From positions 1-36,199 of the forward strand of contig MWCO01000064.1 of NCBI GenBank assembly GCA_002070115.1: a stretch of DNA of 36,199 bases, read 5' to 3'. This document shows positions 5,091-30,511 of the stretch, piece after piece (positions within the stretch are counted from its first letter, which is position 1; every line of letters begins with the position of its first letter). This stretch comes from Deltaproteobacteria bacterium ADurb.Bin207. GTDB lineage: Bacteria; Myxococcota_A; Polyangia; Polyangiales; Polyangiaceae. The notes under the pieces were generated by a model, which had not been told where the DNA came from, made no database searches, and was given only the letters and a program-made list of their open reading frames with translations. Both the position numbers and the translations under genes were made by a program.

Positions 5091-7847
5091 TCAGAAACGA
5101 ACGCCCACGCCCTTCGTTTCGCCTGCTTTCACGGTCACGCTGGTGGACTTTCGTCCTTTTTCGGGATGAATGAACGTGATGGAGTGTGTGCCGGGGCTCA
5201 CGACAACGCCGGATTTAGGAGTTCTGCCGATAGGACGACCATCCAACAACACGGCCGAAGGCGGAATGGAGTTGATGTTGAGCGTGGCAGGTCCGCCGGT
5301 AGTGGCAGCCGTTGGCGTGCTGGCTGGCGTGGGACCAGGGCCCGAGGTGGGGGCTGTGGAAGAGGATTGCTTTCTATCGTCATCGACAGGTGTTTTTCCA
5401 CGCTCATGCAACTCGATGCGAAACGTTTTTTCAGCTTGGCCGTCGGCAAATGAGATGGGAATTTTGAGATCGTCGTAACCAGGTTTGGTGGCTTCGATGC
5501 TCCACTCTTTGGACGTATCGATATCGATCGAGAGCTGATCGTTTTTGAACATTCTCTCATCGATCTGCCGTTTTTCACCTTTGGAAGGTACGAGCAAGAT
5601 ACGAGCGCCGCGGGTGACGAGCTGCAATGTAGCCTTTCCTTTGAGCACATTGAGCTTGATTTCGCCAAGGTCCTCGATCTTGTCCGGAACCACCGTGAGT
5701 GTCTTTTCAAGGGGTTCAAAGCGTTCCGAGCCGACGAAGCGGAGTTTGTGCTCACCAGGGCTGAGGGTTTTCAGAGTCTGGGGAAGGGGTCCTACTTCCG
5801 AGCCGTCGACAAAAAGCATGATGCCTTGCTGGGCTCCAGCGACTTTGAATCCACTGCCCGCGGAGGCTACCGCAAGCTCGAGGTCGAGTTTTGCTTGCGC
5901 CCTTCCCTTGACTTCGACACCTTTGGGAGCCGTAGGCTCATATCCTTCCGCTTCGGCTTTGACGTCGTGGATGCCCTCTTTCAAATCATTGACGGTGCAT
6001 GGTGAGGAGCTGCACACCTTTTCGTTATTGACGAAGATATTGACCTTGCCGATATCTCGTCCGCCTGGTCCTGAAACATAGACTTTGAGCGATCCGGTGG
6101 AAGGCATAAGGAAGTAGGCGCCAAGTCCACCGGCGACCAAAACGAGAATAGCGACCAAGATCCAAGGCAGCGAACTAGCCTTTTCCTTGGGCGCGGAGAG
6201 CATTGTGGGTTCAGCGGCTGCTACCGTTCGAGGCGGAGGCGCAGGAACGAGCCCGGGTGTGGGCGGAGGAATCGATGGCACCTTGGGCATGGGAGGCGCC
6301 ACGTTGCCCGAGCGTTGGAGAAGCGCGGCAGCAGCCGAAGAAGTCGGAGGCGGAGCGGGCGTGCCCGCGGCAGGAAGTGGCTGCATGATGGCATCAGCCA
6401 CTTCATCGGTGGATTGCTTGTCGTAGACGTGAGTTTTTTCGTCCTCATCGTCCCAATCCATATCGACCGCGGCGGGTTTGGCGGGCGGTGGCCCTATCAC
6501 ACCACTTCCCATGACGGGAGGAGCTACAGGGGGAGGAAGCGGATTGGAGGGAAGCGTTCCCCGTGCGGGAGGAGGCGCACTTCCTTTCGCGGGAGGGGCT
6601 GAAATGGCCGGAAGAACCCCGGAACCGCGCGCCACCGGCGGGGGAGGCAAACCAGGGGAACTCGGAATGGGGAGCCGCCCCGGCGATGAAGGCATCGAGC
6701 CGTGCGCAGAGGGAGGCATGGGTGGTGCCATGCCCAGAAGTGTCCGCGCTCGCCCCGGAGGTGGTGGCCCCGAAGAACTCGCCACTCCCAGTGGACTCGG
6801 TACTGTAGAAGGTGTTGTCGCTGGGCGTGCCTGAGGCTTGCGCGCGAGCCCCTCGAATACGTCGAGGTCCGAACCGCCCTTATTTTCCGCCATTGCGTGA
6901 GCCTCCTCGTGCGACGCGACGCGAAGGCTCGCGTCGTTGGGAAAGGTCCGTCGCATGTAGTCTGCCACCGGATCACGGGAAACCGTGATTCCAGCCTTTT
7001 GTGCGAATGCGTTTAAGTCCGCAAATAAATCCGATGCTGAAGTGTAGCGTTCGTCCACGTCCTTCGCTAGCGCTCGCATCACCATCTGATCAAGTTCTGG
7101 CGATAACGAGGGCGCGAACTGTGATGGTGGTTCGGCTTCCGCGTTACGAATCCGCCCCATCACGACCACTTCGTTGTCTCCAAGAAACAATCGACGACAA
7201 GTCAAAAATTCCCAAAGGCAAATCCCGATTGCAAAAATATCCGAACGTTGATCCACGGGAAGACCGCGAACCTGCTCCGGAGACATATAGCCAAATTTCC
7301 CTTTGATTGAGCCTACTTGCGTACGCGCCAGCTTGCCTGCCGCTTTCGCGATTCCAAAGTCAATCAATTTCACATCCCCATCATAAGAAACAAGGATGTT
7401 CGGAGGACTCACATCGCGGTGAACAAGCCCGAGAGGCTGACCATTCGCATCCACCCGTCGATGCGCATAATCCAACCCCTTACAAAGACTCATGATCACA
7501 TGCAGTGTCATGTCGATGGGAATCGATGCCTGACGGTGCTCTGCATTGTCAATGACCGTCCGCATATCACGCCCGTTCACATACTCGAACGCGATGTAGT
7601 AACTGGCATCGACCTTCCCGATATCAAAGATTTTCGCGATGTTCGGATGATCGAGCTGGCTCGCAATGATGGCCTCGTCGTGGAACATCGAGATGAACTC
7701 GTCGTCCTCCGCCACCGATGGCAAGATCCGCTTGATCGCCACAAGCCGCCGGGATTGCCGATGAACCGCGCGAAATACTTCGGCCATACCACCAACGTTG
7801 ATGCGTTCCAGTAGGTCGTAGGCTCCGAAGGCTTGAGGACGGCTCAC
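5091..7847 (-). CDS. PEGA-domain transmembrane Ser/Thr protein kinase
   Basis: The start is GTG 7847, preceded by GGAG at eight bases; an upstream in-frame TTG at 7916 would add 23 residues. The 918-residue protein begins with a Hanks-type kinase domain (about 9-285). It has a glycine-loop segment INVGGMAEVF, VAIK with Lys39, HRDVSPPN (143-150), DFG (163-165) and SPE (189-191), so all catalytic residues are present. VSPPN in place of LKPxN is usual for myxobacterial kinases. A Pro/Ala-rich linker of about 240 residues follows, with an acidic patch DWDDEDE. A membrane helix (561-581) leads to an outer region with PEGA-type repeats, including SIPPSAVLLDGRPIG near the end. A CSSSPC pair lies in the first repeat. 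It probably senses envelope or peptidoglycan-linked ligands and phosphorylates cytoplasmic targets. It is convergent with the pilus genes. Confidence 0.92.
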   Translation of the reverse strand: MSRPQAFGAYDLLERINVGGMAEVFRAVHRQSRRLVAIKRILPSVAEDDEFISMFHDEAIIASQLDHPNIAKIFDIGKVDASYYIAFEYVNGRDMRTVIDNAEHRQASIPIDMTLHVIMSLCKGLDYAHRRVDANGQPLGLVHRDVSPPNILVSYDGDVKLIDFGIAKAAGKLARTQVGSIKGKFGYMSPEQVRGLPVDQRSDIFAIGICLWEFLTCRRLFLGDNEVVVMGRIRNAEAEPPSQFAPSLSPELDQMVMRALAKDVDERYTSASDLFADLNAFAQKAGITVSRDPVADYMRRTFPNDASLRVASHEEAHAMAENKGGSDLDVFEGLARKPQARPATTPSTVPSPLGVASSSGPPPPGRARTLLGMAPPMPPSAHGSMPSSPGRLPIPSSPGLPPPPVARGSGVLPAISAPPAKGSAPPPARGTLPSNPLPPPVAPPVMGSGVIGPPPAKPAAVDMDWDDEDEKTHVYDKQSTDEVADAIMQPLPAAGTPAPPPTSSAAAALLQRSGNVAPPMPKVPSIPPPTPGLVPAPPPRTVAAAEPTMLSAPKEKASSLPWILVAILVLVAGGLGAYFLMPSTGSLKVYVSGPGGRDIGKVNIFVNNEKVCSSSPCTVNDLKEGIHDVKAEAEGYEPTAPKGVEVKGRAQAKLDLELAVASAGSGFKVAGAQQGIMLFVDGSEVGPLPQTLKTLSPGEHKLRFVGSERFEPLEKTLTVVPDKIEDLGEIKLNVLKGKATLQLVTRGARILLVPSKGEKRQIDERMFKNDQLSIDIDTSKEWSIEATKPGYDDLKIPISFADGQAEKTFRIELHERGKTPVDDDRKQSSSTAPTSGPGPTPASTPTAATTGGPATLNINSIPPSAVLLDGRPIGRTPKSGVVVSPGTHSITFIHPEKGRKSTSVTVKAGETKGVGVRF

Positions 7848-23579: not shown

Positions 23580-25334
23580 TCACTGGCAGTGCTGGTCATA
23601 ATCCTCACAACAATCACCCAGTTGAACGCAGAGGTCGTCGCAAGCGCAGCTTACGTCGGGAGAGACGCCACCACAAGAACCGACACATGAACCAGCGAAC
23701 GGTTCATTGGGTTCCACGACAGGTTCCGGGGTGGCCGGAGGTTGCGAAGGATTGGCTTTGAGCTTGACCTGCGTGACGTGCAGCCCGTGACCTTCGTAGG
23801 CGAGTTGCAGCAGTCCACCGTTGTGTTTCCCTTGGGTAACGACATGAAATAGGCTTGGAGGAACGAATAACCCCGTTCCTGAATCGTCGCGAGGCCCGGT
23901 CATCGCGCGCGCTTGATCCATGAGCGGAGCAATGGCTTGCTGGAATTCGGCGTAGCTTCCATAAGGAGTAGAAACGACTTGGACCATATTGTCGAAAAGC
24001 GCATCGACAGCCTGGCGACGAGGGTCCGAGGAGGGAAGGCGATCCATACCCATCGCTTCCAATAAGCCGGGACGCATCAGGCCGAGGAGCTGTCCCTGCA
24101 CGGGAGCAAGCGATTCTCCCATTTGCTCACGAGGAACGTGGGTTCGCATGAAATGCTGAACGATATCCGCCATGGTCATGGGCTTGAAAGCGAGTTTTTG
24201 GCGCTCCGCTTCGATCATGTTGGCAGGGGCGTATTCGGCGATGGGCTGAAGATCCGCCGGGGCTATCGACAACGTGACCGATGAAACAAGTTCGTTTTCG
24301 TTCTGCTCCGTAAAGGCGGAACGTTCGTGAGCATTATGCTTGTGGAGTTCGGATTGGAACGTGTCCCATACTTGCTGCCCTACCAACGGGATCATGGTCG
24401 TGTCGTTGAGAGGGAACAGCAATCCCGCGCTCGTCGCCACAAAGGCCAGTTCGGCGCAATAAATGAGATTCTCCGGGCGACGGAAGAACTGTTCGGCCGC
24501 GGCATCGCCAGCAATGGCGCGAACCATCATTTCCACATGAGTTTGCAGCTTTTCGGGACTGTTGGCCGCCAACGGATCGCCGCCGTTGTAGTCCCCCGGA
24601 AAATTCGAGACCGTGTTGAAACCCACCATCATCGTCCGGATGTTATCCATAAAAGCGCTCTGTAATTGGCTACTTACATAGCCGGGGAACACGGGGCGGA
24701 CGAAAATCATTGGATAATCATCGTCGCCAAATAGCCCCTGCTGATAGCTTTGTGGATTGTTGATCGTGATAGCCCCAGGTTGACCGTTCCATTCTATCCC
24801 AACCACAATCCCGATATGGGTATCTTGCAGCTTCATGTTTTCTTTCATGCTCGCTGCGCTTCCCCCTAGCGATATGGTGCGATGAGAAGGGCGATGGTGT
24901 TTGATGGCAAAGCCGACACTTCCGGGAGGAAATACCTTGGCGATGATCTCGTCGCGATGAGGGAAAAATCGCCCCGCGGCGTCCGACAAAGCGTCTTCGT
25001 CCGCGTAAGGAATGATGTTGACAGGACCGCCAAATAGATGCGTCGGTGCCGTGAAGGATACCTCCCCAAGGTCCATTTGGACGCTGAAAGCCTGTTCTAC
25101 GCTTTTCAGGGGAGCACCCCCGTATGTGCGGTGTAGCGCCTCGAGATCCGCTTCATAAGGACTCAGAAACGTGCCAGCAGAGGGGCCGTCGCACTTGCCG
25201 TAACACGCCGGCGGCCTGGAAAACCCAGTCTGCCCAGGCTTCGCCGAGCCATCGTCAGACTCCGCCGAGCACCCGACGAAAAGCATCAGCGCGAACAATC
25301 CCCCAAGAGTCGATGAAAGAAGTTTTGATTTCAT
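23580..25334 (-). CDS. Lipoprotein with possible permuted papain-like core and somatomedin-B-like C-terminus
   Basis: The start ATG 25334 follows GAGAGGG by seven bases. Of 584 residues, the first 22 form a lipoprotein signal (LFALMLFVGC, Cys22). A CYGKC pair follows at 44-48. The central part has DTHIGIVVGIEWNGQPGAITIN (171-192), resembling the HVGIVV strand of permuted NlpC/P60 (YiiX/DUF830) proteins. Much later comes LIYCAELAFVA (290-300), resembling their YCSELV segment, so His173 and Cys293 would be the catalytic pair. This is a motif-level inference. The last 36 residues (SCVGSCGG...CACDDLCVQLGDCCEDYDQHCQ) have the eight-cysteine C-C-CxCDxxC-GDCC-C spacing of somatomedin-B domains, usually animal protein-binding modules. 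It faces a C45-like hydrolase gene across a 161-bp divergent promoter region. Confidence 0.72.
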   Translation of the reverse strand: MKSKLLSSTLGGLFALMLFVGCSAESDDGSAKPGQTGFSRPPACYGKCDGPSAGTFLSPYEADLEALHRTYGGAPLKSVEQAFSVQMDLGEVSFTAPTHLFGGPVNIIPYADEDALSDAAGRFFPHRDEIIAKVFPPGSVGFAIKHHRPSHRTISLGGSAASMKENMKLQDTHIGIVVGIEWNGQPGAITINNPQSYQQGLFGDDDYPMIFVRPVFPGYVSSQLQSAFMDNIRTMMVGFNTVSNFPGDYNGGDPLAANSPEKLQTHVEMMVRAIAGDAAAEQFFRRPENLIYCAELAFVATSAGLLFPLNDTTMIPLVGQQVWDTFQSELHKHNAHERSAFTEQNENELVSSVTLSIAPADLQPIAEYAPANMIEAERQKLAFKPMTMADIVQHFMRTHVPREQMGESLAPVQGQLLGLMRPGLLEAMGMDRLPSSDPRRQAVDALFDNMVQVVSTPYGSYAEFQQAIAPLMDQARAMTGPRDDSGTGLFVPPSLFHVVTQGKHNGGLLQLAYEGHGLHVTQVKLKANPSQPPATPEPVVEPNEPFAGSCVGSCGGVSPDVSCACDDLCVQLGDCCEDYDQHCQ

Positions 25335-25495
25335 GATGGCACCCTCTCGATAAGCCCCAGTTATTTCCAAAATGCTCCATATCATGAGGAAGCGGCAAAG
25401 CCCCAGTACCATTTTTCATGCCCGGCCCAAAGATGGAAAAAGAATCCCGAGGTGCCCGCCTTGACTCGCCATGCAGACCGTGGAAAACGATCTTC

Positions 25496-26938
25496 ATGCG
25501 ACGCCTTCTTTTTCCGTTTTCCGTTCTCTTATCGACACTCGTACTTCATTCCGCCGCACCGGTTCACGCGCAACAGCGTGAAATCCTTGATCAAAAACTG
25601 AATTCGGCGGGAGAAGGCTACACGGTGCTCCGAGTCTGGGGATCGCGTCAGCAAATCGGCTATGCCATCGGAGCCACCTTCGCCGATGACATCGTTTCTG
25701 CCTTTGATGAAGTGCGAGACATGTCCGGAAACTACTATTCTGTCCTGCGCGGGGCCATGACTTCCCTGACCTTTTTGCCGAAAGGCGTGGAGGAGGAGTT
25801 CAATGGCTTGGTCGAAGGTGTCAAATCCGTGCGGCCAGAAGCCGACGTGGACGCCACCGACATGAAAGTGCTCAATACGTTCGGAGATTGGTCGTATGCC
25901 TGCCGGTCCCATAGCTGTTGGGGATCACGCGTCGAAGCTCCTTATTCGACTCTATCCACGCGACGCCTGGACTTCGGTTCGCCTCTTGCTGTCGTCCACC
26001 ATCACGTGCTTTACGCTATCGAGCCTTCCGACGAGCCGGTTCGGTGGGTCAATCTGGCATGGCCGGGATTCGTCAGCGTGGTGACTGGCGTCAATGAATA
26101 CGGTTCGCTGGTTTCGGTACACGATTTTCAATCCTCGGTCGTTGCCGACCCGGGAGTGCTTTCCCGAACCATGGCAGCCCGCCACCTGCTTTCCTCCGTT
26201 CCTGCTCTTCCCATCGAGGAGCACCTTGCCTGGGCCCAGCAACAGCTTTCCGACCAGCCCATTGCCACAGGAACGTTCATCAACTTCTATGCGCCCAACG
26301 GCTACGGTGGCGTTTTCACCTGCGCTCCTGGCAAGGTTTGTTCGTCTCCACGAACCCCTCAACAAAACTATCGGGATGGGGAGGTGCTCATCACCACCAA
26401 CAGTCAAACGGACGGTCATAGCACGCCGTCGGGAGCCAGTTTTTTGGACCCGTATTACGACACCCCCGGGCCCAAGACCCTCGAAAGCCACTTCGGTGTT
26501 ATGGTGAGTGATGAACTGCATATGATGACGGTCGGATTTCGTTCGAAAGGCGATATGCGGCTGTTGGCGCATGGCCGCACGAGCGAGGGCTGGACGCCCC
26601 GGATCGATGTGGAATGGTCGACGCTATTTCCAACGCCGACCAACGATGCCGGCGCTGACGCGGAGCCCCCGGACGCACCTATTTCCATGGACGCAACCGC
26701 GGACTCGGAAAGTGAGATCGCGGTGGAATCTGGTGCCGATTCCAGCAACTCCGCCCCCCCCGATTCATCAGACGACCCCTCCAATTCATCCGACGAACCG
26801 TCGGAAGGGGGATGTGGATGCAAGGTCAATGGCTCCCCTTCCACCCGGTCGTGGTACGTTTTTCCTTTGGGATTCCTTGCACTTGGCGTATTTGCCCAAC
26901 GTCGCCGCGGCGGCTGCGCAATTGTCGATCGGGGATGA
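25496..26938 (+). CDS. Secreted C45-like Ntn hydrolase with MYXO-CTERM tail
   Basis: ATG 25496 begins a clear Sec signal peptide (MRRLLFPFSVLLSTLVLHSAAPVHAQQ); a longer reading to ATG 25418 adds a non-signal N-terminus. The body resembles acyl-CoA:6-APA acyltransferase/C45 peptidases. CRSHSCWGSR provides a candidate nucleophile (Cys141), and STLSTRRLDFGSP matches the GRNLDF segment. These are followed by WVNLAWPGFVSVVTGVNEYGSLVSVHD. In this fold the nucleophile is normally exposed by self-cleavage; here about 115 residues would precede it after signal removal. The C-terminus has an Asp/Ser/Pro-rich spacer, then GGCGCKVNGS, a hydrophobic helix (WYVFPLGFLALGVFA) and QRRRGG, a MYXO-CTERM sorting signal for surface display. 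The amide or acyl substrate is unknown. It is divergent from the somatomedin-B-like lipoprotein gene. Confidence 0.78.
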   Translation: MRRLLFPFSVLLSTLVLHSAAPVHAQQREILDQKLNSAGEGYTVLRVWGSRQQIGYAIGATFADDIVSAFDEVRDMSGNYYSVLRGAMTSLTFLPKGVEEEFNGLVEGVKSVRPEADVDATDMKVLNTFGDWSYACRSHSCWGSRVEAPYSTLSTRRLDFGSPLAVVHHHVLYAIEPSDEPVRWVNLAWPGFVSVVTGVNEYGSLVSVHDFQSSVVADPGVLSRTMAARHLLSSVPALPIEEHLAWAQQQLSDQPIATGTFINFYAPNGYGGVFTCAPGKVCSSPRTPQQNYRDGEVLITTNSQTDGHSTPSGASFLDPYYDTPGPKTLESHFGVMVSDELHMMTVGFRSKGDMRLLAHGRTSEGWTPRIDVEWSTLFPTPTNDAGADAEPPDAPISMDATADSESEIAVESGADSSNSAPPDSSDDPSNSSDEPSEGGCGCKVNGSPSTRSWYVFPLGFLALGVFAQRRRGGCAIVDRG

Positions 26939-27003: not shown

Positions 27004-27058
27004 GATTTGGGCTCGGTCCTTGACCGCCTTGGACCACCGCCATCGTTTCTCGTGGGGC

Positions 27059-27093
27059 GTGACCGTGACCGTGATCGTGATCGTGGACCGTGA
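27059..27093. repeat. Short tandem hexamer repeat (GTGACC)2(GTGATC)2
   Basis: Two copies of GTGACC (27059-27070) are followed by two copies of GTGATC (27071-27082) and a partial variant GTGGACCGTGA. It lies in non-coding sequence between convergent genes. It looks like a microsatellite that grew by slippage; no function is evident. Confidence 0.7.
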
Positions 27094-27254
27094 AGGAAAA
27101 ACCGGGGGAAAATGCGGGGAAAGGGGACCGGGAGGAGCTTTCACTCCTATCCGTATTGGGATGATTCGGGATTTTCGTCAGTGCTCCGTCAGCTTCGGTT
27201 TCATGGGTCGCTCGCGATTACGCCTGCGACCTGAGCCATCACTCCGGTGAAGTC

Positions 27255-28924: not shown

Positions 28925-30511
28925 ATGAAATACCTGATCGGAACGATGCTGGGCTGGATGCTGCCGGTGTGCTTCGTTTCAGCGGCACAAGCAGCCGATA
29001 TTTATGTGGATGCCCGCAATGGGGGAAAAGAAAACGGCACGATAACGGCCCCCTACCGCACCATCGGCGCCGCCGTCAAAGCCGCCTCTTCAGGGGATCG
29101 TATTCAGATCGCCGCTGGTAACTATGCGGAAAACCTACACTTAAAGAAGCCGCTGACCTTGCAAGGCGGATTCGTGGGAGCACAAGCCCAAACGTATGCC
29201 GCGGGCGGTTCTGGAGATTTTTCCCGAAGCGAGCCTTCCAAACAAGAATCTGTGATCAACGGAAATGCAGAGGCTCCCGTGATTCTCGCGGAAGGAACCA
29301 TCGAAACCACCCTCGATGGCCTGGTGCTCCGGGGAGGAAAAAGCGGCGTCGAATCCAGCGCTTATCCGGAAGACAAGGCACGTCTCACCCTGCGCCACTG
29401 CCGCGTGGAACAAAATGGGAACCCGTCCGTCATTGGCGGCGGCATCCGCGCCAAATCCGAATTGCTCGTGGAAGACTCGATAGTTCGTGACAACGTGGGA
29501 GACCGGGGCTCCGGGATCGCTTCAGGTCCTGCCCGCGCCATCATTGCGCGAACCGCCATTCAAGCCAACACCTCCCACGGGGACCATGGAGGAGGGCTGT
29601 ACGCGGCAGGTCCCGTCGATGTGGTAGGCTGCCTCGTTGTCGATAATACTGTTGGGAAAACAGCAGGTTACGGATGGGGCGGGGGATTGATGTTCTTCAA
29701 CGAAGGAACCAAAGCCACCGTGACCGACACCGAAGTCCGTGGCAATTTCGCCCCCACGAAAGGCAGCGGCGTTTTCGTCGACGACGGTGCCGAAGCCTCG
29801 TTGCGCAACGTGCTCATCGTCAACAACCGATGCGCCAAAGAGGGTGGTGCCCTGTATGTGGACGGCGCCACCGAGCAGTTGGGCTCCAAAGCCTGGCTCA
29901 CCAACGTCACCATCGCGGGACACGATTGTGGCGACAACGGCTATGGCAATGCCGTCGTGATGGAACGAGCCTCCACGCTGGAAGTCGTGAGCAGCATTTT
30001 TTGGAACAACGGCCCCAGGGACACCAGCGTGCAGCCCGGAAATACGCTGACGGTGCGCTACTCCAACACGAAAGACAAACTCCCGGGCCCAGGCAACCTG
30101 AGCGCGGACCCGCTCTTCGCCTCCGCGCAAACCGGCGACTATCGTTTGAAAAATCAGGCCGGTCGCTGGGATCCGTCGTTGAATCAATGCGTTAAAGACG
30201 ACGTAACCAGTCCGTGTGTGGACAAGGGGGATCCCGACGGTTCGTATGAAAGGGAGCCCAAACCCAATGGTGGCCGTGTCGATATGGGAGCTTTTGGCAA
30301 TTCGCCGCTTGCGGGCTGTGCGCCGGAGCAATCGTTGACGACCGCTGCTCCCGGGTCGAATACCCCATCGCTCGGTCCCTCCCGCTCCGGTGCGGCCAAA
30401 GGACGATGCGGCTGTGAAGCCCCGGGAAGCCGTCGAGGCCAGTGGGGGTGGCTTGGGGTGGCGCTCTCATGGCTCGCTTTTCGAACTCGCCGCAAACCGT
30501 TCCGTCGATGA
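28925..30511 (+). CDS. Right-handed beta-helix surface protein with MYXO-CTERM tail (copy 1)
   Basis: The 528-residue protein has a signal peptide MKYLIGTMLGWMLPVCFVSAAQAA. The mature protein begins DIYVDARNGGKENGTITAPYRTIGAAVKAASSGDRIQIAAGNYAENL, the start of a DUF1565/pectate-lyase-type parallel beta-helix. Rungs of about 20-25 residues follow. Conserved pieces include GGGIRAKSELLVEDSIVRDNVGDRGSG, GDHGGGLYAAG, FAPTKGSGVFVDDGAEASLRNVLIVNNRCAKEGGALYVDG, and a final cap with DKGDPDGSYEREPKPNGGRVDMGAFGNS. The C-terminus is GRCGCEAPGSRRG, a hydrophobic helix and TRRKPFRR, a MYXO-CTERM-like sorting signal. No polysaccharide-lyase catalytic residues were identified, so an adhesive or structural role at the surface is as likely as an enzyme. 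It is followed 43 bp later by a paralogue. Confidence 0.85.
   Translation: MKYLIGTMLGWMLPVCFVSAAQAADIYVDARNGGKENGTITAPYRTIGAAVKAASSGDRIQIAAGNYAENLHLKKPLTLQGGFVGAQAQTYAAGGSGDFSRSEPSKQESVINGNAEAPVILAEGTIETTLDGLVLRGGKSGVESSAYPEDKARLTLRHCRVEQNGNPSVIGGGIRAKSELLVEDSIVRDNVGDRGSGIASGPARAIIARTAIQANTSHGDHGGGLYAAGPVDVVGCLVVDNTVGKTAGYGWGGGLMFFNEGTKATVTDTEVRGNFAPTKGSGVFVDDGAEASLRNVLIVNNRCAKEGGALYVDGATEQLGSKAWLTNVTIAGHDCGDNGYGNAVVMERASTLEVVSSIFWNNGPRDTSVQPGNTLTVRYSNTKDKLPGPGNLSADPLFASAQTGDYRLKNQAGRWDPSLNQCVKDDVTSPCVDKGDPDGSYEREPKPNGGRVDMGAFGNSPLAGCAPEQSLTTAAPGSNTPSLGPSRSGAAKGRCGCEAPGSRRGQWGWLGVALSWLAFRTRRKPFRR

Follow-up and report, generated by a model that had tools for sequence, protein, structure and literature searches.

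Two putative outer-surface enzymes, one a lipoprotein with a somatomedin-B tail and a probably permuted papain-like core, encoded divergently on a Myxococcota contig

Permuted NlpC/P60 enzymes rely on a triad of cysteine, histidine and a polar residue, in which the cysteine lies near the C-terminus, and they additionally require a conserved tyrosine (PMC3142127). A GD motif is a mark shared across the cluster of NlpC/P60-type enzymes (PMC10318531), and for one permuted protein, YiiX, cleavage of a lipid amide has been proposed (PMC3142127). Here we compare with these and other described families two divergent genes found in the window, a stretch of 36,199 nucleotides that makes up one entire contig (G000:C64) of a 6.5-Mb draft genome in 220 contigs. 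The layout of the locus is as follows.

23580..25334, minus strand: lipoprotein gene, 584 aa from an MKSKLL start; the open reading frame reaches 25412
25269..25334, minus strand: signal peptide with a lipobox-like end, ...LFVGC (Cys22); hydrophobic leader read from the sequence
25335..25495, no strand: spacer of 161 bp separating the divergent starts
25496..26938, plus strand: Ntn protein gene, 480 aa, with a signal peptide and a MYXO-CTERM-like tail

Starts further upstream are possible for both open reading frames; those given were chosen because they leave the leader sequences at the N-terminus. An earlier sequence-only reading of this DNA had described the two genes, their positions and the spacer in the same way, and it had recognised the minus-strand product as a lipoprotein, which agrees both with its leader and with the finding that most aligned homologues carry a cysteine at or near the place of Cys22. 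Downstream of the Ntn gene, the window contains short degenerate repeats of the type GTGACCGTGATCGTG (27050-27095) and a further exported, repeat-like protein (28925-30511), whose GRCGC...RRK tail resembles MYXO-CTERM.

Relatives of the lipoprotein were found in 13 of the 183 genomes of the order and in ten more genomes elsewhere in the phylum (23 in total), with 48-61% identity for most of them and 35-40% for the two most distant; the phylum search with the lipoprotein gave matches in 22 of 377 genomes, part of them through the somatomedin-B (SMB) domain alone, and no relatives were found in viral contigs. Neither Pfam nor NCBIfam has a model that recognises the core. When 12 family members were compared with Pfam at E <= 10, only tails and noise were matched and Peptidase_C92 (PF05708) was absent, while the family profile, searched against solved structures, found SMB chains together with a few matches put down to chance, and nothing for the core. 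A weak NCBIfam match to ROB beta-lactamase (E 0.086) was discounted, as was the match of one family member to Peptidase_C70 (E 0.14), and a profile search of genome contigs yielded only an SMB-like stretch joined to a PAD_porph protein. The core probably represents a new, uncatalogued family of the Myxococcota. In two genomes (G013 and G020; loci L037 and L038) the lipoprotein homologue adjoins genes for 2-oxoglutarate dehydrogenase E1/E2.

The sequence-only reading had drawn attention to the stretches THIGIVV and YCAEL in this core. Both are present, and alignment of 12 homologues places their histidine and cysteine among the following candidate elements.

24951..24956, minus strand: position of the GD motif (RD in this protein), from the alignment of 12
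24816..24818, minus strand: His173 of D-T-H-I, candidate catalytic histidine, invariant in 12/12
24759..24761, minus strand: Asn192, candidate third polar residue, invariant in 12/12, in a likely strand
24588..24590, minus strand: Tyr249, candidate catalytic tyrosine, within the invariant block FPGDYNGGDPL
24456..24458, minus strand: Cys293 of Y-C-A-E-L, candidate nucleophile, invariant in 12/12

Cys293 is the sole cysteine common to all 12 diverse homologues and, leader and tail aside, nearly the sole cysteine in them. Residues invariant in the family (7-12 aligned members) are H99, D171, H173, N192, Y249, Y292, C293 and E295, the invariant histidines of the 12 members being His99 and His173, the latter in the context D-[TS]-H; the first-strand motif reads GD in ten of the 12, GE in one and RD in the copy of the window. 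The order of elements in the family is GD (mostly), His173, Asn192, Tyr249, Cys293. Since the same order of GD, histidine, polar residue, tyrosine and cysteine is seen in C92 and in permuted NlpC/P60 proteins, our best guess is that the core is a circularly permuted papain-like (NlpC/P60-superfamily) Cys/His enzyme, a case made at the level of motifs and not a proof of fold. A true C92 protein encoded in the same genome has GD, H33, E49, Y104 and C117, with YCSEL around the cysteine. Direct comparison of the core with the C92 profile in hhalign gave a score of 23.9, whereas 100 column shuffles scored 12.5 +/- 1.9 and not one of them reached the real value; this match is confined to the helix of the cysteine (18-36 residues) and has an HHsuite probability of 3-7%. 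Single-sequence AlphaFold2 prediction of the lipoprotein reached a mean pLDDT of 38 and gave no usable fold model.

On this reading the core would be a YaeF/YiiX-like permuted cysteine enzyme of a family spread through the Myxococcota, in which His173 would activate Cys293, Asn192 would orient the histidine and Tyr249 would hold the carbonyl of the substrate. With these predicted roles, the lipoprotein would act on an acyl group held by an amide or ester bond, either cutting it off or transferring it; the example of YiiX and LRAT suggests a lipid-linked substrate at the outer membrane.

The C-terminus of the lipoprotein carries the following domain.

23583..23690, minus strand: somatomedin-B domain, residues 549-584, Pfam PF01033, E 1.2e-7

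With 32.3 bits it exceeds the curated Pfam gathering cut-off of 23.1, which bears out the earlier assignment of an eight-cysteine somatomedin-B-like end (C-x3-C-x8-C-x-C-x3-C-x5-CC-x6-C); moreover, the family profile of the lipoprotein aligns to vitronectin in the SMB part. Among the 12 aligned members, the tail is an SMB domain in six and a PPC domain in one; two relatives end in a lamin-tail-like stretch, as read by eye from their sequences, and others have no tail domain. Hence, as judged from the alignments, the SMB tail is interchangeable among relatives, and we suggest that it serves as a swappable disulfide-knotted module, which probably gives the extracellular enzyme a tether or added stability and whose place may be taken by PPC, by the lamin-tail-like stretch or by nothing.

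Profile matches place the plus-strand protein among the C45/NAAA-like Ntn hydrolases, as a divergent member. The earlier assignment to C45-like Ntn hydrolases holds in so far as NCBIfam C45_proenzyme (NF040521) is matched with E 2.5e-9, but the score of 36.9 bits lies below the curated cut-off of 85. All seven members of the C45 alignment match C45_proenzyme (best 1.7e-50) and five of the seven match Pfam AAT. The profile built from the Ntn protein and its C45 relatives matches the NAAA beta-subunit from residue 1 (E 2.5e-4) and also relates to acid ceramidase. In NAAA, residue 1 of the beta-subunit is the autoproteolytic nucleophile; the profile column opposite this residue begins CtS. Features of the protein that bear on its processing and anchoring are listed below.

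25901..25903, plus strand: Cys136, predicted autoproteolytic nucleophile, invariant in the C45 alignment and opposite NAAA residue 1
25916..25918, plus strand: Cys141, earlier candidate nucleophile, conserved in one close orthologue only
26804..26908, plus strand: MYXO-CTERM-like sorting tail (GCGC, hydrophobic helix, RRR), TIGR03901, residues 437-471

Aligning the protein to its C45 relatives and to the NAAA beta-subunit hence puts the nucleophile at Cys136 and not, as had been proposed, at Cys141, which is probably not the nucleophile because it is kept only in the Ntn protein and its one close orthologue. Together with Cys136, Ser138, Arg156, Asp159 and Asn200 are invariant in the C45 alignment; Cys141, Cys276 and Cys282, common only to the close orthologue, are more likely structural. 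The residue preceding Cys136 is alanine, where glycine is usual. Single-sequence AlphaFold2 prediction gave a mean pLDDT of 34.6 and no usable fold model. We propose that the protein is a C45/NAAA-type amidase, whose nucleophile would become free when the precursor is cut ahead of Cys136, and whose C-terminal tail would anchor the product on the outer surface. The tail bears the GCGC...RRR signature of the MYXO-CTERM anchor that had been claimed for it, but its score against TIGR03901 (19.6 bits, E 8.9e-4) falls slightly short of the cut-off, which is 20.

What the data show is the family membership of the two proteins, their conserved residues with the order of these, and the lack of a conserved linkage, whereas folds, catalysis, substrates and location are inferred. 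On this footing we favour, with moderate confidence, two independent outer-surface amidase-type enzymes that are divergent by chance, the core of the lipoprotein being a new permuted papain-like family. The sequence-only reading had instead suggested that the two may be a co-regulated unit acting on one substrate, for which signalling acyl-amides, peptidoglycan or prey molecules were named; lipidated peptides are a further option. Such a unit would fit the divergent arrangement across a 161-bp spacer and the fact that both predicted families contain enzymes of acyl-amide bonds (NAAA and, by profile, acid ceramidase; YiiX as proposed in PMC3142127). However, the lipoprotein family occurs in 22 other genomes, and in none of them does a C45-like gene lie near the lipoprotein homologue; several contigs are short, so that single misses weigh little, but the sum over 22 genomes does not. 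C45-like genes are present in most of these 22 genomes, but in only one of them (G068) on the same contig, about 408 kb away. The Ntn protein has a single clear orthologue (52% identity) among the 183 genomes of the order. It occurs in genome G085, which thus holds both genes, but there the gene facing the Ntn orthologue is MscS-like, and the lipoprotein homologue is found on a different contig, next to an esterase-like gene. Taken together, these observations largely amount to the outcome, homologues that never occur as a pair, which the earlier reading had itself named as refuting its proposal. About 4 kb from the Ntn orthologue of G085 lies a second, typical C45 protein with GCTSAIAWG (L100:680-2032 and 5899-7641). 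Many genomes of the family to which the window belongs (69 of 106) have a C45 protein of a different subgroup, the GCTSF type, so that an Ntn gene somewhere in a genome is to be expected. A consensus scan for a sigma-70-like promoter in the spacer, which is a weak test, found none. We therefore rejected conserved divergent pairing, and consider functional coupling of the two genes very improbable; their pairing looks like a local coincidence of gene order and not like a shared system. The divergent arrangement could be relevant in the genome of the window alone, and a shared substrate is possible, adjacency in this one genome being its sole support. What stands of the earlier picture of two surface enzymes is that both proteins appear exported and anchored, one probably a Cys/His enzyme and the other of C45/Ntn type; a pairing beyond chance does not.

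The nature of the lipoprotein core deserves more caution. It may have another fold, perhaps that of a different Cys/His enzyme or of a binding protein, in which case YCAEL and THI would merely resemble C92; the missing family match, the long stretch from histidine to cysteine, the conserved residues at 320-520 without a counterpart in C92 and the extra invariant His99 all point in that direction. We consider this unlikely, yet clearly less so than functional coupling, given that the five signature elements all occur in the expected order and that Cys293 alone is shared by every member. A further proposal, compatible with the preferred reading of two independent enzymes, concerns the tail: SMB could be a docking tag of the Myxococcota, by which secreted SMB enzymes (the permuted papain-like family, animal-type arginine deiminases, transglutaminase-like and CAP proteins) bind a common bacterial surface partner, a counterpart at the cell or matrix surface in the style of vitronectin. 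Its appeal lies in the abundance of the domain, which is found above cut-off in 29 of the 108 genomes of the window's family and in 52 of the 235 sampled Myxococcota genomes (up to 30 copies each), compared with none of 14 control genomes, and in the partner domains seen on other SMB proteins, which include animal-type PAD, TGase_elicitor, CAP and DUF6748. However, a common partner is not known so far, the window's SMB (38 bits in a whole-genome family search) is the only one in its genome, and the domain may be a mere disulfide-stabilised spacer; we regard a shared docking role as rather doubtful. The same counts show that the premise of SMB as a mainly animal module is incomplete.

Copy numbers of SMB reach 23-30 per genome in families f26, f48 and f53 of the phylum sample, which represents a lineage-specific expansion. 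In genomes of the window's family, for example at L129, L131 and L136 (in G069, G020 and G064, respectively), SMB stands ahead of animal-type protein-arginine deiminases, which match PF03068 with E about 1e-84 in L129 and L131, L136 being similar-looking. At L042, L043 and L138, lipoproteins matching TGase_elicitor (PF16683), another family of cysteine enzymes, have SMB tails. A cyanobacterial origin of animal PADs has been argued (PMC8826395), and the SMB-PAD proteins of Myxococcota bear on the history of citrullination. A literature search on bacterial or Myxococcota SMB found no paper, although some may exist. In this phylum the domain is far commoner than one would expect of a module best known from animals, and this bears on its origin and its basic job. 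If our reading of the lipoprotein core is true, the permuted papain-like enzymes, a group tied to lipid substrates as far as its members have been studied, gain an uncatalogued, surface-exposed family in bacteria known for predation and social behaviour.

Among described systems, the lipoprotein core most resembles Peptidase_C92 (YaeF/YiiX-like), with which it shares, besides the order of elements, YC[SA]EL around the cysteine, a single catalytic-type cysteine and an exported or lipoprotein context; it differs in lacking a PF05708 match, in its wider gap between histidine and cysteine (about 120 residues; the C92 protein of the same genome has about 85), in having asparagine and not glutamate as the third residue, in its long conserved C-terminal half, and in its lipobox and GKCDG leader region. 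The Ntn protein resembles the secreted C45, NAAA and acid ceramidase enzymes (NF040521; PF03417, AAT) in its aligned nucleophile cysteine, arginine, aspartate and asparagine and in the predicted cleavage of a precursor before the cysteine, whereas it scores below the curated C45 value, reads Ala-Cys-Arg-Ser-His-Ser-Cys where others read Gly-Cys-Thr-Ser, and has the extra cysteines 141, 276 and 282 as well as the MYXO-CTERM anchor. Its tail is like those of myxosortase substrates such as TraA in the GCGC signature, hydrophobic helix and arginine-rich end, while remaining marginally short of the curated TIGR03901 score. Finally, the SMB domain agrees with that of vitronectin, autotaxin/ENPP2 and EndoU in its eight-cysteine pattern over 36 residues, but it sits on a bacterial lipoprotein and, in comparison with vitronectin, is one residue shorter from Cys2 to Cys3.
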